The notes beneath the pieces are model-generated. The model saw only the letters and a program-made list of their open reading frames with translations. It was not told the origin of the DNA and searched no databases. Shown in pieces: positions 51,357 through 64,000 of a stretch of DNA of 64,000 nucleotides (positions are counted from its first letter, which is position 1; the number at the start of each line of letters is the position of its first letter). The position numbers were made by a program, and so were the translations under genes. Origin of the DNA: Hydrogenophilales bacterium 28-61-23 (lineage in GTDB: Bacteria; Pseudomonadota; Gammaproteobacteria; Burkholderiales; Thiobacillaceae); assembly GCA_002281555.1 (NCBI GenBank), contig NCGJ01000004.1:1-64000 (forward strand). Direction: 5' to 3'.

Positions 51357-52628
51357 ATGGCTTACCGCGTTACCACCCTAAAGATGACCTCAGGGGAGAG
51401 GCTGCCAATTCTTCGGGACGGGAATGGTCTGCCCATGTTCAAACCCACCGTCTACGCACTGACCGAGCTCAGAGCGCGGAATCTGGCCAGCAACACCCTC
51501 AACCAAGCCCTGCGCAGCATCATGGTCCTCCACCTGTTCCTGAGTGAACGTGGGATAGCGTTAGAGTACCGGATGGCAGAGGGGAAGCTTCTGTCGTTGG
51601 CTGAACTAGAGGCGTTAACGCGACTGTCCCGGCTCCCCCTCGAACAAGCGGTCCATCTGAGTGACACAGTGAGCCTTACGGCCAGACCCAAGGTGGTCTC
51701 CCTGGAGGCGGTTCGCATGCGGAGTCAGCAGCATTCCCCGCCGGAAATAAGCTCGGATGTGGCCGGCACCCGTATGCGTGCCATCCGAGACTATGTTGTC
51801 TGGCTTGCCAGGGTGCACTTGAGCCAGCATGGACTCGAGCAGGCCACGGAAAGGGGACTGAGAGACGCATCAGAAAGCCTGGTAAAGGCGATAAACGCAC
51901 GCATTCCGCAGAAATCCCGCGGAAATCTCACCGGTGCGCCCGAAGGCCTATCTGAGGAAGTTGTCGCAGAATTACTTAGGCTGATAGACCCCCACTTGGA
52001 CGACAACCCATGGCGTTTTGAGCACGCTCGCTATCGCAATGAACTCATCATCCTTTGGTTGTTATTCCTGGGGCCGCGGCGAGGTGAAGTGCTTGGTGTT
52101 CGCGTGGGAGACATCAATTTCCAGAAAGGCACAGTCACCATCCACCGCCGTGCGGACGACCCGGAAGACCCCAGGGCAGACCAACCCCAAACGAAAACGA
52201 ATCCGCGCGAGATACCTGTGATGCCACAGCTACTCCTGTTGACCCAAGCCTATGTATTGAACCATCGCAGGAAATTACCTGAAGCCCGCAAGCACGAGTT
52301 CTTGTTTGTGGCAAGCAGAACAGGAATGCCCATGTCGATTTCTGCAGCCAACAAGCTCTTTAGTGTCTTGCGGGCCAGATGCCCATCGTTGCCGGATTCG
52401 GTACGGGCGCATGTATTGCGGTACACGTGGAACGAGCGCTTTTCCCAAGAAATGGATAAGCAAAAGATGGCTCCGGAGGAGGAGAAAAGAATCCGTTGTT
52501 ATCTCATGGGCTGGTCTAACACCTCGAAAATGGCTGCCATCTACTTAAGACGCCATATCAGAAGAAGAGCCAAGGAGGTTTCTCTCGAAATGCAAAACAA
52601 GCTCTTTTTCGAAAGGAATACGAAATGA
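51357..52628 (+). CDS. tyrosine recombinase 1 of a three-recombinase module
   Basis: 423-residue tyrosine-type site-specific recombinase. Catalytic residues: Arg in GPRRGEVLG (241/242), HxxR in AHVLRYTW (His352, Arg355), and Tyr396 in AAIYLRRH. The N-terminal ~200 residues should be the core-binding part. Its stop overlaps the start of the second recombinase (ATGA). First gene of a four-gene overlapping operon with the layout of Tn554 tnpA-tnpB-tnpC or RIT-type recombinase trios. The 5' end exists in a second, decayed copy upstream. Confidence 0.85.
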   Translation: MAYRVTTLKMTSGERLPILRDGNGLPMFKPTVYALTELRARNLASNTLNQALRSIMVLHLFLSERGIALEYRMAEGKLLSLAELEALTRLSRLPLEQAVHLSDTVSLTARPKVVSLEAVRMRSQQHSPPEISSDVAGTRMRAIRDYVVWLARVHLSQHGLEQATERGLRDASESLVKAINARIPQKSRGNLTGAPEGLSEEVVAELLRLIDPHLDDNPWRFEHARYRNELIILWLLFLGPRRGEVLGVRVGDINFQKGTVTIHRRADDPEDPRADQPQTKTNPREIPVMPQLLLLTQAYVLNHRRKLPEARKHEFLFVASRTGMPMSISAANKLFSVLRARCPSLPDSVRAHVLRYTWNERFSQEMDKQKMAPEEEKRIRCYLMGWSNTSKMAAIYLRRHIRRRAKEVSLEMQNKLFFERNTK

Positions 52629-54139
52629 ACACTGTTCCGGAGTTGCCAGAAGTTGCCAGAAGCAGGTCGGGTGTCGAATTCGACCCAAGAAGCGAAAGGT
52701 GGTCGTATCGTGATACCAGTCGAACCGTGAGCCTTAATTTTAATCGTCTAACCCATGTTACAGAGCAATTCATCTCTTGCACCAAGTTGGTGATGCTTTG
52801 GTATGCCGAAAATAAGGCCCCGGCACATTTGGTAAATATGTTCAGCATGCTCGTGCATTTTCTGAAATTTATGCCTAACAACCCTAATGTTTTGCTTTCG
52901 GAAATAACGAGTACAGACCTTATCAACTACAAGGCTTCTCTCGGCAAGAGACAAGCGTGGTATCTCGGCAGCCTTTCGGGGTTGCTCCAGAAATGGCACG
53001 CGCTGGGCTACCCCGGAGTTACCGATGATGCTGAGGTCCTGCTCAGAAACCTGCGTGTCGGGGGCAATCTCAAAGGCGAGGCGGTCCTGACCATGGACCC
53101 GGAACAAGGCCCCTTCACGGATATTGAGCTGTTAGCACTGCAGGCCGCGTTAGACAGGGCTTTTGCCGAGGGCGAGCTGAATGTGGACCACTATCTGCTT
53201 GCATACCTCTACATGCTCTTGGGACAGCGTTCGATACAGTATGCCGCCCTGAAGGTCAGGGATGTCGCAGTGAGCCGCGCCAAGGACGGGACCCCGGTAT
53301 ATTCCCTGCGCGTTCCCCGCGCCAAGCAGCGTAACCAGTTGTCGCGAGAAACCTTCAAGGACCGGGTCATCATCCCTCAAGTAGGCGAACTGCTGGTCAG
53401 GTATGCAGACGAGGTGTGCGAGCAGTTCGCAGACATGCTGGATGACCCTGCGGATGCGCCACTCTTTCCGGCAAAACAAAGACGGGGTAATGAACCGGCC
53501 GGGTTCAAGTACCACCGCACTCCGCAGGCCTTGGCGCACACCCTCAAACAAAGATTTGAAAAGCTGAAGGTCCCATCCGAGCGCACCGGCAAGCCGATTC
53601 ACATTACACCAACCCGGTTCCGGCGCACGATTGGGACCCGGGCGGCCGCTGAAGGCCACGGCGAACTCATCATCGCCGAGCTGCTGGACCACAATGACAC
53701 CCAAAATGTGGGCGTTTACGTGGAAGCCGTGCCCGAAATGATTGAGCGCTTCGACTGGAATATGGCCATGAGCCTAGCAACTCTTGCGCAGGCCTTCGCG
53801 GGAACCATCATCGAGAACGAGTCCCAAGCCACGCGTGCTGGCGACCCAAGCAGCCGCATCTGCGACCCGCGCTTCGATTCCTCAATGAAACCGCTCGCCA
53901 ATTGTGGCAAGCATGGTTTCTGCGGATTCATGGCGCCCATTGCTTGTTACACCTGCGTGAGTTTTGAGCCTTGGCTGGATGGGCCACATGAAGCCGTGCT
54001 CGACCACTTGCTTCGCGAGCGGGAGAGGCTATTGGCCAACCATGACCAGCGCATCGCGTCCATCAACGACCGAACCATTTTGGCGGTCGCGGAAGTGATT
54101 CGCCGTTGCGAGGAGATTCGAAAAAACAACCATGGCTGA
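52625..54139 (+). CDS. tyrosine recombinase 2 of the module
   Basis: 504 residues. Arg I is Arg202 in LLGQRSIQY; the second box reads TPTRFRRTIGTR, with the catalytic Arg but Thr in place of the usual His; then LLDHNDTQNVGVYVE supplies the late His and the Tyr nucleophile. The C-terminus has a Cys cluster (CGKHGFCGFMAPIACYTC), probably a zinc finger, as in TnpA/TnpB-like recombinases of Tn554. Overlaps both neighbours by a few bases (52625-52628 and 54132-54139). Confidence 0.82.
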   Translation: MNTVPELPEVARSRSGVEFDPRSERWSYRDTSRTVSLNFNRLTHVTEQFISCTKLVMLWYAENKAPAHLVNMFSMLVHFLKFMPNNPNVLLSEITSTDLINYKASLGKRQAWYLGSLSGLLQKWHALGYPGVTDDAEVLLRNLRVGGNLKGEAVLTMDPEQGPFTDIELLALQAALDRAFAEGELNVDHYLLAYLYMLLGQRSIQYAALKVRDVAVSRAKDGTPVYSLRVPRAKQRNQLSRETFKDRVIIPQVGELLVRYADEVCEQFADMLDDPADAPLFPAKQRRGNEPAGFKYHRTPQALAHTLKQRFEKLKVPSERTGKPIHITPTRFRRTIGTRAAAEGHGELIIAELLDHNDTQNVGVYVEAVPEMIERFDWNMAMSLATLAQAFAGTIIENESQATRAGDPSSRICDPRFDSSMKPLANCGKHGFCGFMAPIACYTCVSFEPWLDGPHEAVLDHLLRERERLLANHDQRIASINDRTILAVAEVIRRCEEIRKNNHG

Positions 54140-56189
54140 CATCATTGTTTTCCAACCCAAAGCCGAGCTGGACGCCCAGTCCAACCTAGATGGATTCATT
54201 GAGTCTTGCCGATACGACCTGACCATATTTGGTGCGGACCTGGACTTTGACGCTCCTGCTTGGGACCTGACGAAATACTTGGAGCGCCGCACGGTCAGGA
54301 ACTCACGGGCCGCGGTGACCTTTTCCACGTGGGGAACCCGCAACAAAGTCCATCCGGAAAGTTTGGCGCAACCCTTCCAGTCATTTGCAAAAGCCTATCT
54401 GCGCTACATGCATGGCCTGCGCCCGACAAAGATTATCGATTTCAGGTTAGCCGCCCTGCGCGCCCTGGAATTCGCACTGACGGAAAACAACGGTGAGGCT
54501 AATCCGGTCCTCCTGGATGCCAGTCACTTTAATCGTGCAGCCCAAGCCATCGGGCTCGAATTGGGCGACGCGACAGCCTATCGAATTGGCAGCCAGCTAG
54601 AGATGGTGGGTGAGTTTTTAGCTGAAAACCGGTTGACGAAAGTGCCGGTGCACTGGAAAAACTATATAAAACGGCCAAACGACACAACTCGTGTGGGCAA
54701 AGAAGCGGACGAACGCCGCAAAGAGAAGCTTCCCTCTGAATCCGCGCTTGATGCCCTGCCGAAGGCTTTCCGACTCGCAACCAATCCGGCCGATGTAATC
54801 GTCACTGCCACGGCAGCCATACTCTGTTCCGCGCCGGACCGCGTCACCGAGGTAATGACCCTACCTGTTGACTGTGAGCACTGGGGCAAGCACAACGGCA
54901 AGGAGGTCTACGGGATTCGCTGGTGGCCGGCGAAGGGGGCTAAGCCCATGGTCAAGTGGGTGGTGCCCTCGATGGCCAGTGTCGTGCAAGAGGCCTTGGC
55001 AAAAATACGAGCCTGTACCGAGGAAGCACGGCGCGTAGCGAAATGGTACGAGGACCATCCCCGCCAAGTATACCTACCGGCCGATAAGGAACACTTGCGG
55101 CATCAGGAATGGCTCAGCATGTCTGCGCTGGCAGAGTGGCTTGGGTCGGCAGGCGGAAGCTCAGCGAGCGGTTGGTGTGAACGCAATGATGTGCAGAAGA
55201 CAACTCGAGAAGGCAGCGGAAGAACAATTTATGCCCGTTTTTCCGATATTGAGGCAGCAATCATCAGGATGCTGCCATCTGAATTTCCGGTATTCGACAA
55301 ATCCACTGGACTGAGATACAGCGATGCCCTTTTTGTGGCCCGAATCAACGAAATAAACAGGCAGAAGGGCATGTTTTCCTCCATGGTCAAGCCCATTTCC
55401 ATCCAGCAGATTAGTGATGGGCTTGGAGCCCGGGTCGAACATGGTTTTCCCTCTGTTTTCAGCCTTATGGGATTTACCGCCCCGGATGGAAGCCCGATAC
55501 AAATTAAAACTAACCAGTTTCGACATTATCTGAACACGTTGGCCCAGCTCGGCGGGATGAGCCAATTGGATATTGCCAAATGGTCAGGCCGAAAGGATAT
55601 CCGCCAGAACGCCGTCTACGACCATGTCAGCCCCGACCAAATGCTCCAGAAAGTCCGAGATGCTATTGGCGACGACAGCCAGATGTTTGGGCCGTTGGCC
55701 GAGTTGCCAAAGCGCGTATTGATACCCCGCGACGAGTTTGCACGGTTGCTGGTGCCAACCGCGCATACCACTGACTTCGGGTTCTGCATCCATGACTACA
55801 CCATGTCACCCTGCCAGCTGCATGCCGACTGCATTCATTGCCAGGACCTGGTGTGCGTCAAAGGGGACGAGGAGCGGGCTGTGAAGCTGCACCGGCTACT
55901 AGAGGAAGCCAAAGCCTTACACGAACAATCGCTGGCGGCGGTGGATGAAGGGTATGCCGGGAGTGACCGATGGATGCAACATCAGAAAACCACAGTGGAG
56001 CGCCTGACGCAGCTATGCGGCATCCTCGATGACTCTTCAGTGCCGAACGGTGCGGTCATCCAGCTTTCAACACCAAACATGGCGTCCAGGATTACACAGG
56101 CGGTCGAGGCGCGGCTTGGTCATGAGTTGTCAGGGAGCAGCAGCGAGATGAAACTGCTGTCAAGGCTGATGGATTCCACGGAGTCTTGA
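54132..56189 (+). CDS. tyrosine recombinase 3 of the module (TnpB-like)
   Basis: 685 residues, similar in length to Tn554 TnpB. Recombinase boxes are present: Arg in SAPDRVTEVMTL, the Arg-His in NQFRHYLNTLAQ, and Tyr in GRKDIRQNAVYDHVS. A C-terminal cluster (HDYTMSPCQLHADCIHCQDLVC) suggests zinc binding. The longest of the three and the most divergent; whether it cuts DNA or acts as a structural partner is unknown. The stop is directly followed by the next gene. Confidence 0.8.
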   Translation: MADIIVFQPKAELDAQSNLDGFIESCRYDLTIFGADLDFDAPAWDLTKYLERRTVRNSRAAVTFSTWGTRNKVHPESLAQPFQSFAKAYLRYMHGLRPTKIIDFRLAALRALEFALTENNGEANPVLLDASHFNRAAQAIGLELGDATAYRIGSQLEMVGEFLAENRLTKVPVHWKNYIKRPNDTTRVGKEADERRKEKLPSESALDALPKAFRLATNPADVIVTATAAILCSAPDRVTEVMTLPVDCEHWGKHNGKEVYGIRWWPAKGAKPMVKWVVPSMASVVQEALAKIRACTEEARRVAKWYEDHPRQVYLPADKEHLRHQEWLSMSALAEWLGSAGGSSASGWCERNDVQKTTREGSGRTIYARFSDIEAAIIRMLPSEFPVFDKSTGLRYSDALFVARINEINRQKGMFSSMVKPISIQQISDGLGARVEHGFPSVFSLMGFTAPDGSPIQIKTNQFRHYLNTLAQLGGMSQLDIAKWSGRKDIRQNAVYDHVSPDQMLQKVRDAIGDDSQMFGPLAELPKRVLIPRDEFARLLVPTAHTTDFGFCIHDYTMSPCQLHADCIHCQDLVCVKGDEERAVKLHRLLEEAKALHEQSLAAVDEGYAGSDRWMQHQKTTVERLTQLCGILDDSSVPNGAVIQLSTPNMASRITQAVEARLGHELSGSSSEMKLLSRLMDSTES

Positions 56190-56660
56190 TTGGCCAAAAA
56201 ACCGTTAGCACGCAGAAGGGCGAAGAACCTCGACGACAAAGCCATCGAGGCCATCATCGGGATACTGGATGGCTGGGCCGAAGCGCTGACATGGGAAAGA
56301 CTCATCGAAGCAATCGAAGGGCGGCTTTATGCCCGTTACACCCGGCAAGCCCTTTTCAAGCACGAACGTGTCAGGGCGGCGTTTGTGCTCAGGAAAGAAG
56401 CTCTATCGCAAATGGGTACTAAGCGGGCCCGTCAGGGGCCACCTGAACTGGTAGCCGCCGTGGAGCGTATTGCTCGCCTTGAGGCCCAGGTCCAGCGGTT
56501 AGACGCAGAGAACAAGCAGTTACTTGAGCAGTTCGTGCGTTGGGCTTACAACGCGTTCACAAGGGGGCTGGACCAGGATTTTCTAAACCGACCACTACCC
56601 CAGGTTAACCGTGGCCAGACTCGGCAGCCTTTGAGAGCGATGAAGAGCGCGAGAAAGTGA
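56190..56660 (+). CDS. small coiled-coil protein of the recombinase module (TnpC-like)
   Basis: 156 residues, start codon TTG at 56190 immediately after the stop of recombinase 3. Basic N-terminus (MAKKPLARRRAKN), a helical region resembling a winged-helix segment (ALTWERLIEAIEG...YTRQALFKHERVRAAF) and a coiled coil at about 90-120 (RIARLEAQVQRLDAENKQLLEQF). Tn554 TnpC has the same size range, position and helix plus coiled-coil make-up; sequence similarity cannot be checked here. Confidence 0.7.
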   Translation: MAKKPLARRRAKNLDDKAIEAIIGILDGWAEALTWERLIEAIEGRLYARYTRQALFKHERVRAAFVLRKEALSQMGTKRARQGPPELVAAVERIARLEAQVQRLDAENKQLLEQFVRWAYNAFTRGLDQDFLNRPLPQVNRGQTRQPLRAMKSARK

Positions 56661-57905: not shown

Positions 57906-58934
57906 ATGACCGTCCTGCGCCTCCCCTTCGCCATCCGCCTGAGCGATAACCAACTCGTTTCGGCTGTAGAGGTTCCGCGCGGCGCGGCCTGCAACTGCAT
58001 CTGCCCCGGTTGCCGCAATCCCCTGCTGGCCCGGCAAGGTACCGAACGCGAATGGCATTTCGCCCATGTCCACGCCAGCGATTGCGCGGATGGCTATGAA
58101 AAGTCGGTCCACGAACTCGCCAAGCAGCGCATCCAGCAGCAGAAACTGCTCCTGCTCCCGGCCATTGAGGTATCTGCACAGGGCTGGGATGCGTACGGAC
58201 GTCTAGTTGAGGAAAAGCAGTTGGTCATGGAAGCGCGGTCTGTGTCGCTCGATGACTGCAAGAAGAGCCTGCCGCATGGCGTTGTCACCCCGGACCTCAC
58301 GGGCCGGCGGCAGGACCGGGAAATCCTGGTCGAAATCACGGTGTTCCACCGACTGATGCCCGATAAGCAAGCACGCCTTGTTGAAACCGGGGTGCCTTCC
58401 TTCGAGATTAACCTTGGCGTGTTTCAAATCCAGCAAGCCACCCTGGAACGGCTGGACGCGGAATTGTTCGAGAATCCCAAGAACCGTCTCTGGATATGGC
58501 ATCCTAAACAGGAAGCGGCCCAGACCACAGTAGAAGCCGCAGTGGAAGCGCGTATCAGCGCGGTACGGATGCAATGGGAGGCCGAGGAGCGGCTGCGGCC
58601 ACCCCCGGTGCCACGGCCCGCAGCCCCGGTCTATTCCATGTGGCGGCAGCGGGAGGAAGCCCTGCCCCCGCAGCCACAGCGAACGCCTTTCGATAGCCGC
58701 AGATGGCGGGCAGGATTGCCTATGCCTGAACAGGTCGCCCTGGCCGCTTATGCGCTGTCTGGACGCACCGGCGTGCCCGCCACCGAAGTTCTCTCCCTGA
58801 CCGGGGCTTTAACGAGTCGTGGAATGCTGGTGGAAGTAACACCGACTGAACTGGCCGCCCGCTGGGCACAGCAACTCCAAGTACCCGAACACGAAATGGT
58901 CATGTTCCTCATTGAGGCGGATTACCTGCTCTAA
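57906..58934 (+). CDS. CoiA-like competence/nuclease-fold protein
   Basis: 342-residue protein. N-terminal zinc-type segment CPGCRNPLLARQGTEREWHFAH matches the start of the CoiA family, followed by YEKSVHELAKQRI and a nuclease-like strand pair VTPDLTG...ILVEITVFHR that fits a PD-(D/E)XK site with a Thr replacing the Lys. The Pro-rich middle (about 230-265) leads to a helical C-terminus. CoiA helps process transforming DNA in Gram-positives; in proteobacterial islands such proteins are of unknown role and may be defence nucleases. It stands between the ParA remnant and hsdM. Confidence 0.7.
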   Translation: MTVLRLPFAIRLSDNQLVSAVEVPRGAACNCICPGCRNPLLARQGTEREWHFAHVHASDCADGYEKSVHELAKQRIQQQKLLLLPAIEVSAQGWDAYGRLVEEKQLVMEARSVSLDDCKKSLPHGVVTPDLTGRRQDREILVEITVFHRLMPDKQARLVETGVPSFEINLGVFQIQQATLERLDAELFENPKNRLWIWHPKQEAAQTTVEAAVEARISAVRMQWEAEERLRPPPVPRPAAPVYSMWRQREEALPPQPQRTPFDSRRWRAGLPMPEQVALAAYALSGRTGVPATEVLSLTGALTSRGMLVEVTPTELAARWAQQLQVPEHEMVMFLIEADYLL

Positions 58935-59132
58935 CCCAAGGCGTTCAGCCAACATGTTGATGGTTTTGTGCCTTGATTATTGAGCTTGGCCTACCGGGGA
59001 AGGCCGCGCGCTATGAACTGACAAGAGATGTTCAGTACTAGCTGACCGGGGCCGTCTCAGCGGGTAACTATGCAAATTTTCGATGTGCTTAACTAGTAGC
59101 TACACTGTCCGCTAAAACATCGATATTCCCCA

Positions 59133-60938
59133 ATGAACTTCTCAGAACTCGCAAATTTCATCTGGTCCGTCGCCGACCTCCTGCGCGGCGATTACAAACA
59201 AGCAGACTACGGCAAGGTCATCCTCCCTTTCACCCTTCTGCGCCGCCTGGACTGCGTTCTGGAGCCCACCAAGAAGGAAGTGCTGGCCGAATACGCCAAG
59301 CGCAAGGAAGAAGGCGTCAACCTCGACATCTTTTTGAAGCGGAAGAGCAAGCAGTCCTTCTATAACGTAAGCCCCTTCACGGTCCCAGGCCTGTTGGCTG
59401 ACCCAGGCAACATCCGCCAAAACCTCATTGCCTACATCGGTGACTTTTCTGCCGATGCCCGGGAGGTGTTCGAGCTCTTCAAGTTCAACGAGCGGATTGC
59501 GGAACTGGATGACCGGAACCTGCTGTACATGCTGGTTCAGAAGTTCGCATCTATCGACCTGCACCCCGATACCGTGCCGAACGAAACCATGGGCCTGGTG
59601 TTCGAAGACCTTATCCGGCGATTTGCAGAAGCATCAAACGAGACGGCCGGCGAACACTTCACCCCAAGAGACGCGATTAAGCTGATAGTTCAGTGCCTTT
59701 TCGTGGGAGATAGCGACGCGTTATCGAAGCCTGGCGTGGTTCGTTCCCTCTACGACCCCACTGCAGGCACCGGCGGCATGCTCTCCGTTGGTCAACACGA
59801 ACTGCACAAGATGAATCCAGGCGCCAAGCTCGCGCTGTTCGGCCAAGAGCTGAATGACGAGTCATACGCTATCTGTAAAGCGGACATGCTCATCAAAGGG
59901 CAGAACCCGGGCAACATTCGTCGGGGCAACACGTTGTCGGCAGATGGCTTCCCGTTCGAGAAATTTGACTACTCGTTATCAAACCCGCCGTTTGGCGTGG
60001 ACTGGAAGAAGGTGCTCGACTTCATCAAGACCGAGCATGAGAAGAAGGGCTATGGCGGGCGATTCGGCCCAGGACTGCCGCGCATCTCAGACGGCGCGAT
60101 GCTGTTCCTGTTACACCTCATCTCCAAGATGCGTCCACCTGCCGAAGGCGGCTCCCGTATTGGTATCGTCCTCAACGGGTCTCCGCTGTTCACGGGGGAC
60201 GCAGGTTCTGGCGAATCAGAGATACGCCGGTGGATTCTAGAGAACGACCTACTGGAGGCCATCATCGCGTTGCCAAATGACCTGTTCTACAACACCGGCA
60301 TCGCAACGTACGTCTGGATTCTGGACAACGATAAGCGGCCTGACCGTAAGGGCAAGGTTCAGCTGATAGACGCCTCGCGCATGTATCAGAAGATGAAGAA
60401 GTCCCTGGGCAACAAGCGAGTGGAGGTCTCTGATGCCCAGATTGCCGAAATCGTCGAGGTCTACGCAGGCCGGAAAGTGGGTGCGGTCTTCGAGAACGAG
60501 TTCAAGGTGCCGTTGAAGAACAATGGCAGGGATGCCGAGCCTGAGGCCCCACGCGTAGTCAGCAAGGAGTTCGACACCAAGTTCTTTGGCTACCGGAAGG
60601 TGACGGTTGACCGTCCGCCTGCAGAGGGCAAGGTAGTCAAGGTCAAGAAAGGCCAGAAGCCCTATGACCCAGACCTCCGCGATACCGAGAGCATCCCCCT
60701 GACCGAGCCCATCGAGGCCTACTTCAAGCGGGAAGTTCTACCGCATGTGCCGGATGCATGGGTGAATCCCGACATTAAGGATGAAAAGGACGGGCGGGTC
60801 GGCAAGGTTGGGTACGAAATCAATTTCAACCGGTACTTCTACGTCTATAAGCCGCCACGCAAGCCGGCGGTCATCGCCGAGGAAATCCGGGAGATGGAGA
60901 AGCGCTTCCTGGAACTGATGAAGGGGGTGGTGGCGTGA
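59133..60938 (+). CDS. hsdM: type I restriction-modification methyltransferase subunit
   Basis: 601-residue N6-adenine methyltransferase. N-terminal HsdM domain (MNFSELANFIWSVADLLRG), SAM motif DPTAGTGGM at 208-216 and catalytic NPPFG at 284-288. A charged C-terminal region (470-600) probably contacts HsdS. Overlaps hsdS by four bases (GTGA at 60935, hsdS starting at GTG). The 198 bases upstream hold its promoter, which I could not place. Confidence 0.94.
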   Translation: MNFSELANFIWSVADLLRGDYKQADYGKVILPFTLLRRLDCVLEPTKKEVLAEYAKRKEEGVNLDIFLKRKSKQSFYNVSPFTVPGLLADPGNIRQNLIAYIGDFSADAREVFELFKFNERIAELDDRNLLYMLVQKFASIDLHPDTVPNETMGLVFEDLIRRFAEASNETAGEHFTPRDAIKLIVQCLFVGDSDALSKPGVVRSLYDPTAGTGGMLSVGQHELHKMNPGAKLALFGQELNDESYAICKADMLIKGQNPGNIRRGNTLSADGFPFEKFDYSLSNPPFGVDWKKVLDFIKTEHEKKGYGGRFGPGLPRISDGAMLFLLHLISKMRPPAEGGSRIGIVLNGSPLFTGDAGSGESEIRRWILENDLLEAIIALPNDLFYNTGIATYVWILDNDKRPDRKGKVQLIDASRMYQKMKKSLGNKRVEVSDAQIAEIVEVYAGRKVGAVFENEFKVPLKNNGRDAEPEAPRVVSKEFDTKFFGYRKVTVDRPPAEGKVVKVKKGQKPYDPDLRDTESIPLTEPIEAYFKREVLPHVPDAWVNPDIKDEKDGRVGKVGYEINFNRYFYVYKPPRKPAVIAEEIREMEKRFLELMKGVVA

Positions 60939-62263
60939 GCCTCTGGATACACCAACTTCCGAATGGATGGGAAGAAGCACCGCTAAAAACTCGTCTAGCG
61001 CGAAATGACGGTGGGGTTTGGGGCGACGACCCTGACGGCGATGGAGACACAATTGTTCTTCGTTCTACTGAGCAAAAGGTGGATGGGACTTGGTCTATTG
61101 AAGAGCCTGCTGCCCGCAAGTTAACGGCTGCTGAAGTTGCCGGTTCTTTCCTCGAGGCTGGCGACTTAGTGGTGACCAAATCCAGCGGCAGTGAGCTGCA
61201 CATCGGCAAAACCAGTTTGGTTTCACCGGAAGTCGCGGCTCTCCGTGCCTGCTATTCAAACTTCATGCAGCGCCTACGTGTTGATGGCCGCACAGAACCA
61301 AGGTTTGTTCATTACTGGCTTAACAATTCATTATGCCGAGAGCAATTCTCATACCTATCTAACAGCACAAGCGGGCTGTCAAACCTTAATGCCGGCCTCA
61401 TAGGGAGTGTCTGGCTGGCCTTTTCGGATAGAGCCGAGCAAGTCCGCATCGCCGACTTCCTCGACGCGCAGACGGCGCGGATTGACGCGCTGATTGCGGA
61501 GAAGGAGCGGCTGGCCCAAAGCCTTTCTGAGTACCAATACAGCTACGCATCCAGTCTGATGACGCGTGGAATGAACCCTGACGCCGAGTTTGAGAGCACC
61601 AGTTTTCCTGAAATTGGCTCCATTCCGAAACACTGGACCACAAAAAGGCTAAAGTTCCTGGGAAATGTGCGGTCCGGAGTCGCAAAGGGCAAAGATAACG
61701 GGGAAAAGAACACGGTTTCCCTACCCTATCTACGGGTTGCCAACGTTCAAGATGGTTTTGTTGACCTAACGGAGGTATTGGAGATTGAAGTCGCGCAGTG
61801 CGAAGCTGCCAGGTATTTCCTACAGAAAAACGATGTTTTGATGAATGAAGGCGGCGACAACGATAAGCTTGGCCGTGGCACAGTCTGGGAAGGCCAGATT
61901 GCCCCTTGTATCCACCAGAATCACGTCTTTGCGGTTCGACTTTTTGATACGTCGCTGGCTGAGTGGGTGGCTCGGTTTACTTCTACAGATGCCGCGCGGT
62001 CGTATTTCTTCTTACGCTCGAAACAGAGCACAAACCTGGCTTCAATAAACCAGTCGAACGTTCTCGAATTGCCAGTGCCAATGCCGCCCGATGAGGAGCG
62101 AACAACAATCCTCGAAGAAGTCCGGCGCTCGGCCAAAGCTACTACGGAGCTTATCCAGCATGTTCAGGAACACATAGAACGCCTTCGCGAGTACCGCTCC
62201 TCCCTGATTTCAGCGGCAGTCACAGGACAGCTCGACATCAGTACGTTCAAGGAGGCCAACTGA
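60935..62263 (+). CDS. hsdS: type I restriction-modification specificity subunit
   Basis: 442-residue specificity subunit with two target-recognition domains (about 1-150 and 215-380), each followed by a conserved coiled-coil spacer: QVRIADFLDAQTARIDALIAEKERLAQSLSEY and the C-terminal TTELIQHVQEHIERLREYRSSLISAAVTGQLD. Recognition sequence cannot be predicted. GTG start inside the hsdM end. Its stop overlaps the start of the CD-NTase gene by one base (TGATG). Confidence 0.93.
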   Translation: MSLWIHQLPNGWEEAPLKTRLARNDGGVWGDDPDGDGDTIVLRSTEQKVDGTWSIEEPAARKLTAAEVAGSFLEAGDLVVTKSSGSELHIGKTSLVSPEVAALRACYSNFMQRLRVDGRTEPRFVHYWLNNSLCREQFSYLSNSTSGLSNLNAGLIGSVWLAFSDRAEQVRIADFLDAQTARIDALIAEKERLAQSLSEYQYSYASSLMTRGMNPDAEFESTSFPEIGSIPKHWTTKRLKFLGNVRSGVAKGKDNGEKNTVSLPYLRVANVQDGFVDLTEVLEIEVAQCEAARYFLQKNDVLMNEGGDNDKLGRGTVWEGQIAPCIHQNHVFAVRLFDTSLAEWVARFTSTDAARSYFFLRSKQSTNLASINQSNVLELPVPMPPDEERTTILEEVRRSAKATTELIQHVQEHIERLREYRSSLISAAVTGQLDISTFKEAN

Positions 62264-63144
62264 TGGGAGTGGCCGACTGGTTTTCTGCGTTTTGTACGTC
62301 TATACGGATTGGGACTGACTTGCGTTCCTCGATTGCGTACCGGACAAAGCGCATCACAAAGCAGCTCAACATGGACTCACGGAGTTCGTCCTCTGATACT
62401 GCGAATAGCTTTTATGCAGGGTCATATGGAAGAAGTACTGCGGTTCCCAGCGTCAGCGATATAGACCTTGTCTACGTGCTGCCTTATGAAGTTTACGAGC
62501 AGCACGACAAACTCAAAGGCAACAAGCAATCCACCCTGTTGCAGGCAGTTCGCAACACAATACGCAAGACCTACCCAACGTCAGCGATTTCTGGAGATGG
62601 ACAAGTTGTTGCCATCGTGTTCAACGATGGCATTACATACGAAATTCTTCCCGCGTTTCTAAACAAAGACGGGAGCTACACCTACCCAGATTCGAACAAT
62701 GGCGGCTCCTGGAAGGTCTGCAAGCCGAAGCATGAATTGGATGCGTTCTTGACGCGAAATGCGGAGTGCAATGGGAACTTAGTTGAGCTTGGACGGATGG
62801 CCCGTGCTTGGCGTGACTATAACAATGTGCCAATGAGCGGCATGCTGATTGATACCTTGGCATATCAGTTCATTGCTGCGTGGAGTCATCGAGACAAGTC
62901 CTACCTTTATTACGACTACCTGACGCGGGACTTCTTCAATTTTCTGGCCGCTCAGTCAGAAGCGCAAACGTACTGGCTTGCACCAGGCAGCAACTCGTAC
63001 GTCTGGAGAAAGGGTAAGTTTGAGTACAAGGCCCGTCAGGCTGAGTTGCGGGCCTTGGAGGCTATCGAGCATCAAGCCAATAACCGCGAATGGTCGGCCA
63101 AACAAAAATTCCGGGAGATATATGGAACAGCCTTCCCCGATTGA
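62263..63144 (+). CDS. CD-NTase (CBASS cyclic-oligonucleotide synthase)
   Basis: 293-residue nucleotidyltransferase of the cGAS/DncV-like superfamily. Active-site features: GSYGRST (Gly53, Ser54), the metal-binding pair Asp66 and Asp68 in VSDIDLVYV, and third acid Glu127 in TYEILPAF. Such enzymes sense phage infection and make cyclic di- or trinucleotides that switch on an effector. Its ATG overlaps the hsdS stop by one base, and it overlaps the SLATT gene by 23 bases, so it is embedded in the hsd operon. The nucleotide product is unknown. Confidence 0.88.
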   Translation: MGVADWFSAFCTSIRIGTDLRSSIAYRTKRITKQLNMDSRSSSSDTANSFYAGSYGRSTAVPSVSDIDLVYVLPYEVYEQHDKLKGNKQSTLLQAVRNTIRKTYPTSAISGDGQVVAIVFNDGITYEILPAFLNKDGSYTYPDSNNGGSWKVCKPKHELDAFLTRNAECNGNLVELGRMARAWRDYNNVPMSGMLIDTLAYQFIAAWSHRDKSYLYYDYLTRDFFNFLAAQSEAQTYWLAPGSNSYVWRKGKFEYKARQAELRALEAIEHQANNREWSAKQKFREIYGTAFPD

Positions 63145-63709
63145 AAGTAAAGCCACGCCTTCAGCAATGACAGTGGAGGGTCAACTACGCGAAATGTATG
63201 GCCGAGTTGCCTATACGCATAAAACCCACGAAAAGATGGCGGACAGTTACATCGCCCGATATAAGTTCATCAAAACGGTCGAGATAGCGCTCTCCGCCAT
63301 TACTACAGGCAGCCTGCTGTTGGCGGTCTTCGGTGACTCCCATGAAGGGGCCGTCGTAGGGGCATTTCTTTCAACGGTGCTGCTTGGGCTTACGCTGTAC
63401 TTCAAGGAGGGCAACCTAGGGGAGCAATCGCAGAAACACACAGTTGTCGCATCTAAGCTCTGGGGCATCCGAGAGCAACTCTTAAGCCTACTGGTTGATA
63501 TGCGGGATGGTCGAGCAGTTGAAGATATTCGTGTAGCCCGCGACGCTATCAATGGCGAACTTGAGGCAATTTACAAGAGCGCACCAAGAACTACACCTAA
63601 AGCCTACGCTGCTGCGCAGAAGGCTTTGAAGGAGGCCGAAGAACTGTATTTCTCTGAGAATGAGCTTGACCACTTGCTCCCTGAGAAGCTCAGGTCAATG
63701 AGGCAATAG
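63122..63709 (+). CDS. SLATT-type two-helix membrane effector
   Basis: 195-residue protein from the ATG at 63122 (MEQPSPIESK). Two adjacent membrane helices at about 53-71 and 77-95 are followed by a helical cytoplasmic part (EQSQKHTVVASKLWGIREQLLSLLVDMRDGR), the SLATT layout. SLATT proteins are effectors in CBASS, thought to form membrane pores upon binding the cyclic nucleotide. Translationally linked to the CD-NTase through a 23-base overlap. No ubiquitin-like Cap2/Cap3 or HORMA/TRIP13 genes are present, so this would be a minimal two-gene (type I) CBASS. Confidence 0.82.
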   Translation: MEQPSPIESKATPSAMTVEGQLREMYGRVAYTHKTHEKMADSYIARYKFIKTVEIALSAITTGSLLLAVFGDSHEGAVVGAFLSTVLLGLTLYFKEGNLGEQSQKHTVVASKLWGIREQLLSLLVDMRDGRAVEDIRVARDAINGELEAIYKSAPRTTPKAYAAAQKALKEAEELYFSENELDHLLPEKLRSMRQ

Positions 63710-63737
63710 AATCAACTATAAGATTGGCGAGAATGGA

Positions 63738-63824
63738 ATGAAAAAATTGGCGGAAGCAATATTTGGCTGGACGATGGCTACCTGGGTGTCGCTATACCGC
63801 TTCATTCGTCAACACGGTATCTAA
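63738..63824 (+). CDS. possible 28-residue hydrophobic peptide
   Basis: Short ORF with sequence starting MKKLAEAIFGWTMATW and ending RQHGI: a basic N-terminus, an amphipathic or membrane-seeking helix and a basic C-terminus. It fills the 121-base gap between the SLATT gene and hsdR, ending six bases before the hsdR ATG. The upstream GGCGAGAATGGA provides only a modest ribosome site. It may be a real small protein, a leader for hsdR translation, or chance. Confidence 0.35.
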   Translation: MKKLAEAIFGWTMATWVSLYRFIRQHGI

Positions 63825-63830
63825 TAGTTA

Positions 63831-64000
63831 ATGCCCACCACCTCCAACGTCCATACCGAAAAAGTCTTCGAAGACGAGCTCTGCGCTCATCTGGCCGCCA
63901 ATGGCTGGTCCGTCCGCACCCACCTGAAAAACGCCACCGCCTACAGCCGCGAACTGGCCCTATTCCCTGATGACCTGCTTTTATATGTACAGGAGACACA
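63831..64000 (+). CDS. hsdR: type I restriction endonuclease subunit HsdR (partial, runs off right edge)
   Basis: The first 56 codons from the ATG at 63831: MPTTSNVHTEKVFEDELCAH, then LAANGWSVRTHLKNATAYSR and ELALFPDDLLLYVQET, the typical N-terminus of HsdR before its PD-(D/E)XK nuclease domain. The ATP-dependent translocase part lies beyond the window. Placement after the CBASS-like genes shows that the CBASS unit is inserted between hsdS and hsdR. Confidence 0.85.
   Translation, partial: MPTTSNVHTEKVFEDELCAHLAANGWSVRTHLKNATAYSRELALFPDDLLLYVQET

Follow-up and report, generated by a model that had tools for sequence, protein, structure and literature searches.

Type I restriction-modification (R-M) operons can house further defence genes. 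Two reports (PMC12707154, PMC12409349) place the anticodon nuclease PrrC in EcoprrI, where inhibition of R-M by T4 Stp releases PrrC; they also describe PARIS as sensing Ocr and propose that Ronin senses anti-restriction proteins. Independent modules have also been published inside type I operons: in the RRDM island, DarTG2 occupies the space separating hsdS from hsdR (PMC12255303), and TgvAB lies within the VPI-2 type I operon of V. cholerae and is reported to protect without HsdR cleavage (PMC11411939). Here, we describe a two-gene cyclic-oligonucleotide-based antiphage signalling system (CBASS), a cGAS/DncV-like nucleotidyltransferase (CD-NTase) gene followed by a gene for a SLATT effector, nested in a type I operon of Hydrogenophilales bacterium 28-61-23 with hsdS ahead of it and hsdR behind. 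The stretch analysed, hereafter the window, comprises positions 1 to 64,000 of contig NCGJ01000004.1.

The arrangement is of a known kind, in that nested defence modules and an R-M guard, PrrC, are already published; no description of CBASS as the payload was found in a search of titles and the first parts of abstracts, among the papers listed, which left subscription papers mostly outside. A preprint on genetically embedded defences by Payne and others, to which two of the above reports refer, may list CBASS cases. A first-pass annotation of the window, made from the letters alone, had known of no described functional link between restriction and an abortive-infection arm; that statement is corrected by the published link between PrrC and EcoprrI and by the one proposed for Ronin.

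We re-read the unit base by base. The order hsdM-hsdS-CD-NTase-SLATT-28-codon open reading frame (ORF)-hsdR, all on the + strand, and the overlaps of 4, 1 and 23 bases given by the first-pass annotation are exact. The cyclase gene (62263-63144) encodes a 293-aa SMODS CD-NTase, the CBASS signal synthase (PF18144, E 8.2e-47; PADLOC Cyclase PDLC00786, E 2.6e-135), and the effector gene (63122-63709) encodes a 195-aa SLATT_4 membrane protein (PF18186, E 3.2e-63; PADLOC 2TM Effector PDLC00696, E 1.5e-73). The hsdS stop and the cyclase start share the letters TGATG and overlap by 1 base; 7 bases 5' of the cyclase start lies a Shine-Dalgarno-like AAGGAGG (62249-62255, +), a near-perfect ribosome site encoded by the final hsdS codons. 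The SLATT gene opens 22 bases ahead of the final cyclase base, which gives the 23-base overlap.

The methyltransferase subunit gene hsdM (59133-60938, +; 601 aa) encodes HsdM_N and N6_Mtase domains (PF12161, PF02384; PADLOC MTase_I, E 4.5e-256), with the motifs DPTAGTGG (DPxxGTGG) at 208 and NPPF at 284, and overlaps by 4 bases the specificity subunit gene hsdS (60935-62263, +; 442 aa, GTG start; PF01420, Methylase_S; PADLOC Specificity_I, E 4.9e-79). The 5' part of hsdR occupies 63831-64000 (+), and its reading frame continues to contig position 66914 (1027 aa); HsdR matches PADLOC REase_I and, under the model's curated cut-off, the NCBIfam model TIGR00348 (E 5.9e-55), and it has E-x-K, Walker A and DEAH motifs. 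HsdM, HsdS and HsdR are thus all present with the catalytic and motor motifs in place, and the R-M system may be active in methylation and restriction. The 28-codon ORF (63738-63824, +) ends 6 bases 5' of hsdR. It has no family match in Pfam or PADLOC and no credible relative among the matches listed in the collected loci. This orphan ORF may serve to couple translation to hsdR, at whose start no Shine-Dalgarno-like site was found.

Cyclase residues G53, S54, G56, R57, T59, S65, D66, D68 and E127 are invariant in all 27 aligned cyclases. In the alignment, D66 and D68 are the counterparts of the DxD pair in P. aeruginosa CdnD, which was mutated as D62N/D64N in a solved structure entry, and E127 is probably the third catalytic acid. 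The catalytic residues are intact, which speaks against the loss of active-site function that would have undermined the first-pass reading. The structure model of the cyclase was weak (pLDDT 57); in a fold search, all 50 matches listed were CD-NTases or cGAS, at TM-scores of 0.35 or less. Hydropathy of the effector reveals two hydrophobic stretches, near residues 53-71 and 76-94; its model is all-helical and of fair quality (pLDDT 76), and comparison of this model with the PDB gave no relative (best match, E 0.24). Type I CBASS is defined by the lack of Cap2/Cap3, HORMA or TRIP13 genes alongside. The direct neighbours of the pair are the hsd genes and the 28-codon ORF, with none of those ancillary genes there, and the adjacent SLATT protein belongs to a known CBASS effector class. 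The assignment of a minimal CBASS within a type I R-M operon is supported by the matches to both families: the pair is predicted to be a standard minimal type I (cyclase plus effector) CBASS with a cyclic-oligonucleotide output. It has the same adjacent SMODS and SLATT genes as other type I CBASS with a 2TM (SLATT) effector and no ancillary genes seen; however, the typical system is a free-standing pair in most loci examined, whereas the window pair is flanked by hsdS and hsdR and has junctions that overlap.

The locus also differs from each of the described nested systems. Like PrrC/EcoprrI and Ronin, it joins an abortive-infection gene to a type I R-M system, but PrrC is an anticodon nuclease in complex with EcoprrI, whereas the window payload, SMODS plus SLATT_4, is a nucleotide-signalling pair that is not known to form such a complex. 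Like the RRDM island, it carries an independent defence module in the hsdS-hsdR slot, but the RRDM payload is a toxin-antitoxin pair, and RRDM has a gene for the repressor RptR upstream. Directly upstream of the window hsdM there is no ORF that would fit an RptR-like gene, although no search with the RptR sequence was made; the sole ORF of at least 28 aa wholly inside 58955-59133 is one of 32 aa on the opposite strand. Where RRDM has an M48 peptidase gene following hsdR, the present locus has a 494-aa PDC-M36A-like gene, described below. Finally, TgvAB likewise consists of two defence genes housed in a type I operon, but its payload is a type IV, GmrSD-like nuclease rather than CBASS.

We compared the window with 41 other cyclase loci, a hand-picked thinning of those collected with cyclase or SLATT queries; no R-M protein was among the queries. 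The 41 comprise 19 plasmid loci (18 drawn from 149 records and 1 from 78), 2 E. coli chromosome loci (of 13 matched records), 10 viral-contig loci, 6 sampled-genome loci and 4 loci from genome_contigs. SLATT was seen in 40, the other (L113) ending inside the cyclase. The viral_contigs collection gave no match to the window cyclase; when eight long cyclases were aligned and the alignment was used as the query, it gave 10 loci, all of them used. Among phage records, two from Listeria matched partially. A DNA search of 5426 E. coli genomes with the Aeromonas pair found the cyclase in one and SLATT alone in 12 more, the single locus inspected among those 12 being a lone pair. Where loci lacked annotation, we looked for hsd genes with phmmer, using the proteins of the window and of the named nested systems as queries, a search that very divergent R-M genes could escape; flanks were short at G442 (L125), G116 (L126) and L113.

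In 5 of these 41 loci, or 6 of 42 counting the window, the pair is nested in a type I operon, with hsdS on one side and hsdR on the other: on plasmids of Arcobacter (L008), Aeromonas veronii (L009) and Methylomonas (L022, unannotated, with a mechanically called TTG cyclase start), on the chromosome of E. coli PM22 (L029), and on a contig from the viral collection (L105). The search for hsdS-CD-NTase-SLATT-hsdR order that the first-pass annotation proposed thus returned independent cases, and the arrangement is not unique to this genome. At all six nested loci the cyclase starts between -4 and +7 bases relative to the end of the preceding gene; in PM22 the preceding gene is a small one of the DUF2188 family, and it in turn overlaps hsdS. 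The arrangement is not due to chance, because the overlaps join strongly matched families and the order recurs in other organisms. Within the flanks examined, 35 of the 41 other loci have no R-M operon around the pair. We counted apart a Microcystis plasmid locus (L012, 4451-12781), in which the pair lies between a type IIG-like methylase gene and a PLD/SNF2 helicase gene, a nesting in another kind of defence operon. Some un-nested pairs lie near R-M genes: the pair of G116 (L126) follows a C5 methylase gene, that of L013 lies ahead of an AlwI-type endonuclease gene on the opposite strand, and that of L007 has hsdM about 6.8 kb downstream.

Several other features of these loci were observed. 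SLATT comes first and the cyclase second in four relatives (L021, L023, L024 and L114). In the Aeromonas nest, a WYL-domain regulator gene (L009, 3357-4268) lies 8 bases ahead of hsdM and is a candidate shared repressor. In the Methylomonas nest, an AbiD/Abi_2 gene (L022, 5987-6985) follows the CBASS pair in the same hsdS-hsdR slot; therefore, one slot can take two payloads. The PM22 locus (L029, 4237-13900) has the order hsdM-hsdS-slot-hsdR-M48 of the DarTG2 island, the M48 peptidase gene following hsdR as in RRDM, and its slot holds a PDC-S16-like gene together with CBASS.

Co-expression of CBASS with the R-M genes is likely, because the cyclase start and its ribosome site sit within the end of hsdS. 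The first-pass claim of co-expression is borne out to that extent by the overlaps and the ribosome site, although a promoter of the pair's own is still compatible with them. All but one of 14 short-form loci share the 23-base cyclase/SLATT overlap (11 of 11 in one comparison, plus L123 and L124), the exception being the distant L026; the SLATT start is TTG in L016 and L123. Among the 13 loci with this overlap, the window alone is in a type I operon. The overlap is kept mostly outside nests, and therefore the cyclase-SLATT pair moves as a unit; the cyclase/SLATT overlap is a property of the module, and the hsdS/cyclase overlap a property of the nest.

We then examined the hsdS-hsdR gap in relatives of the R-M system. 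Of 300 genomes of the order, 41 encode HsdR relatives (E up to 1e-100), one of the 41 being the genome of the window itself. Outside the window there were 45 matched places; we surveyed 40 regions that account for 42 of them (G892, G927 and G801 were left out), together with two plasmids. An hsdS was called upstream of hsdR in 35 of the 42 loci. The gap holds at least one + strand ORF of at least 60 aa in 22 of these 35 and none in 13; the ORFs are mechanical calls, some surely spurious, and the 22 include L061, whose hsdS is 7 kb off. No cyclase or SLATT label was found among the listed ORFs (up to seven ahead of hsdR) in these loci. In the nearest R-M relative (L063, from G977; HsdR 77% and HsdM 80% identical), the gap is 67 bases, and the slot of a Variovorax locus (L062) holds a 106-aa ORF with two hydrophobic stretches.

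Scanning sixteen of the accessory proteins, a subset, identified a Septu pair in the slot of L065, an AbiLi-like ATPase with a PDC-M38B partner in L094, an Orf5/HEC-06-like protein in L075 (HEC-06 is termed GmrSD-like in the literature) and a GIY-YIG protein (PDC-S14) in L079, as well as Schlafen-AlbA proteins (L087, L090 and L095), RhuM (L097) and a lactamase-like protein (L096). L092 also encodes a HEC-06-like protein, located in the hsdM-hsdS gap. The slot proteins of L064 and L062 had no Pfam match, and those of L077 and L084 no PADLOC match. An hsdR of the PM22 type occurs in 550 of 5426 E. coli genomes (PM22 included), and in 536 the match spans 80% or more of the query; the slot holds YecA, with or without a cold-shock-domain gene, in three other genomes inspected, and CBASS in PM22. 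We conclude that the hsdS-hsdR gap is a general, swappable cargo slot, in which R-M relatives hold nothing or other genes.

The GC content of third codon positions (GC3) is 0.59 for the CD-NTase gene and 0.56 for the SLATT gene, as compared with 0.74 for hsdM and 0.76 for hsdR. We also considered whether hsdS and CBASS move together in a single cassette. Identity of the window HsdS to those of L062 and L063 is only about 30%, though HsdM and HsdR are 70-80% identical. The single cassette is unsupported, since L079, with a near-full-length HsdS match of 52%, has the GIY-YIG gene in its slot, and it is also disfavoured by low hsdS GC3 in L062 and L063, two relatives that lack CBASS.

In a cyclase tree of 39 rows (the 42 minus L010, L026 and L113), the window cyclase falls in a short clade, beside G830, a lone copy from the same order (support 100/99); the remaining five nested cyclases all fall in a long clade; the long cyclase of L009 has SMODS and AGS_C domains. 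The nested state requires 5 changes on the tree (bootstraps, 5 to 5), with at least 4 changes forced by strongly supported branches. The R-M partners are also diverse. The window HsdR is 21-26% identical to the other nested HsdR proteins over partial lengths; those of L009 and L105 are 91% identical, and those of L008, L022 and L029 38-42% identical to one another. By these identities, CBASS is carried by at least three R-M groups. The nests contain two SLATT families: SLATT_4 in the window and, by phmmer, in L009 and L105, and SLATT_6 in L008, L022 and L029.

We consider it probable that an autonomous CBASS cassette has been captured in a swappable slot, is co-expressed with R-M, and serves as a second line when restriction fails. 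One transcript would carry the methylase, specificity subunit, CBASS and HsdR genes; translation of the cyclase would be coupled to hsdS through the ribosome site in the hsdS end, and translation of the effector to that of the cyclase through the 23-base overlap. A phage that passes restriction and replicates would activate the cyclase by the system's own infection cue, and the resulting cyclic oligonucleotide would lead the SLATT protein to damage the membrane and thereby halt the cell ahead of phage release. Through nesting, the first and second defence lines would share dosage and induction and be transferred together, with no obligatory molecular link. The main evidence against an obligatory link is that the same cassette is used outside R-M operons. 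Nested cyclases that were scanned have the usual domains only; together with the 35 un-nested loci and the divergent R-M partners, the lack of an added domain means that no molecular link is singled out. Hence, the first-pass suggestion that CBASS may depend on restriction is unsupported, whereas its alternative, that CBASS may back up restriction, is a reasonable proposal.

Some of the evidence weighs against this reading. Nesting is a minority state: it was seen neither at the 6 other loci from sampled genomes nor at the 4 from genome_contigs. On the tree, the nested label is no more clustered than shuffled labels (141 of 500 as low), and gains of nesting cannot be told from losses. Composition cannot date the capture, because hsdS GC3 is low in relatives without CBASS too. 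A promoter and terminator scan of the + strand from 58900 to 64000 found no such site; it says little, because the promoter expected ahead of hsdM was also missed, and CBASS may have its own. Finally, TgvAB alone is reported to be 10- to 100-fold less protective against several phages than the whole cluster, which the authors attribute to a possible stoichiometry imbalance (PMC11411939).

An alternative is that the R-M complex holds the cyclase off, and that phage inhibition of R-M of the Ocr or Stp type frees it, so that CBASS fires when restriction is evaded. This is the logic of PrrC in EcoprrI and of the proposed Ronin. These precedents keep the alternative alive, as do the repeated use of the slot, with at least 4 changes of nested state on the tree, and the overlapping starts, which would maintain stoichiometry. 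Nevertheless, we regard it as unlikely: with no R-M operon around the pair at 35 of 41 other loci within the flanks examined, the module seems not to need R-M; active-site residues are common to nested and lone cyclases, and no nested cyclase scanned has an unusual domain; and with nested HsdR proteins 21-42% identical save for the one 91% pair, a specific contact would need to have arisen repeatedly. In its fullest form, a signalling version of PrrC and Ronin with several independent origins, in which nested cyclases are gated by R-M state and anti-restriction proteins trigger suicide, it is doubtful.

It is similarly improbable that CBASS is a passive hitch-hiker that gains nothing from its position in an insertion-tolerant slot spread by R-M mobility. 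The frequency of ORFs in the gap (22 of 35 related loci), the varied slot contents and the minority of nested pairs (5 of 41) are what passive carriage would give, but all six nested cyclases start within 7 bases of the preceding gene, and several identifiable slot contents (Septu, AbiLi-like, HEC-06-like) are defence genes. That the pair instead regulates or tempers restriction, for example by damping HsdR while R-M establishes, rather than acting as an antiviral suicide arm, would fit its position ahead of an hsdR at which no Shine-Dalgarno-like site was found, but is very improbable given the many copies without an R-M operon around them and the match of both genes to CBASS models.

Beyond hsdR, a 494-aa gene (L002, 4911-6395) overlaps hsdR by 4 bases; it has a PADLOC PDC-M36A match and no Pfam family, and is likely a further member of the R-M/CBASS operon. 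A complete type I Zorya set (ZorA, ZorB, ZorC and ZorD; L002, 7335-15583, contig 69335-77583) is located about 2.4 kb past hsdR on the opposite strand; therefore, the R-M/CBASS unit is part of a defence island. Ahead of the defence genes, at 51357-56660, three large overlapping genes are followed by a 156-aa gene. Two of the three are tyrosine-recombinase-like and the third has no family match; in NCBIfam, only integrase_1 and Xer-type matches were obtained, with two of the four genes unmatched. These genes are perhaps a mobility module of the island; a Gamma-Mobile-Trio island was considered as a candidate assignment. No tRNA gene was found within the window.

With this locus, a signalling system joins the defence payloads described for the hsdS-hsdR slot, and the cyclase tree shows several entries of CBASS into, or losses from, type I operons. 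Such recurrent nesting hints that the pairing of CBASS with R-M is useful, which does not imply control of one by the other. Nested and lone cyclases of one family, and related R-M systems with and without CBASS, are natural pairs with which to address the question of coupling.

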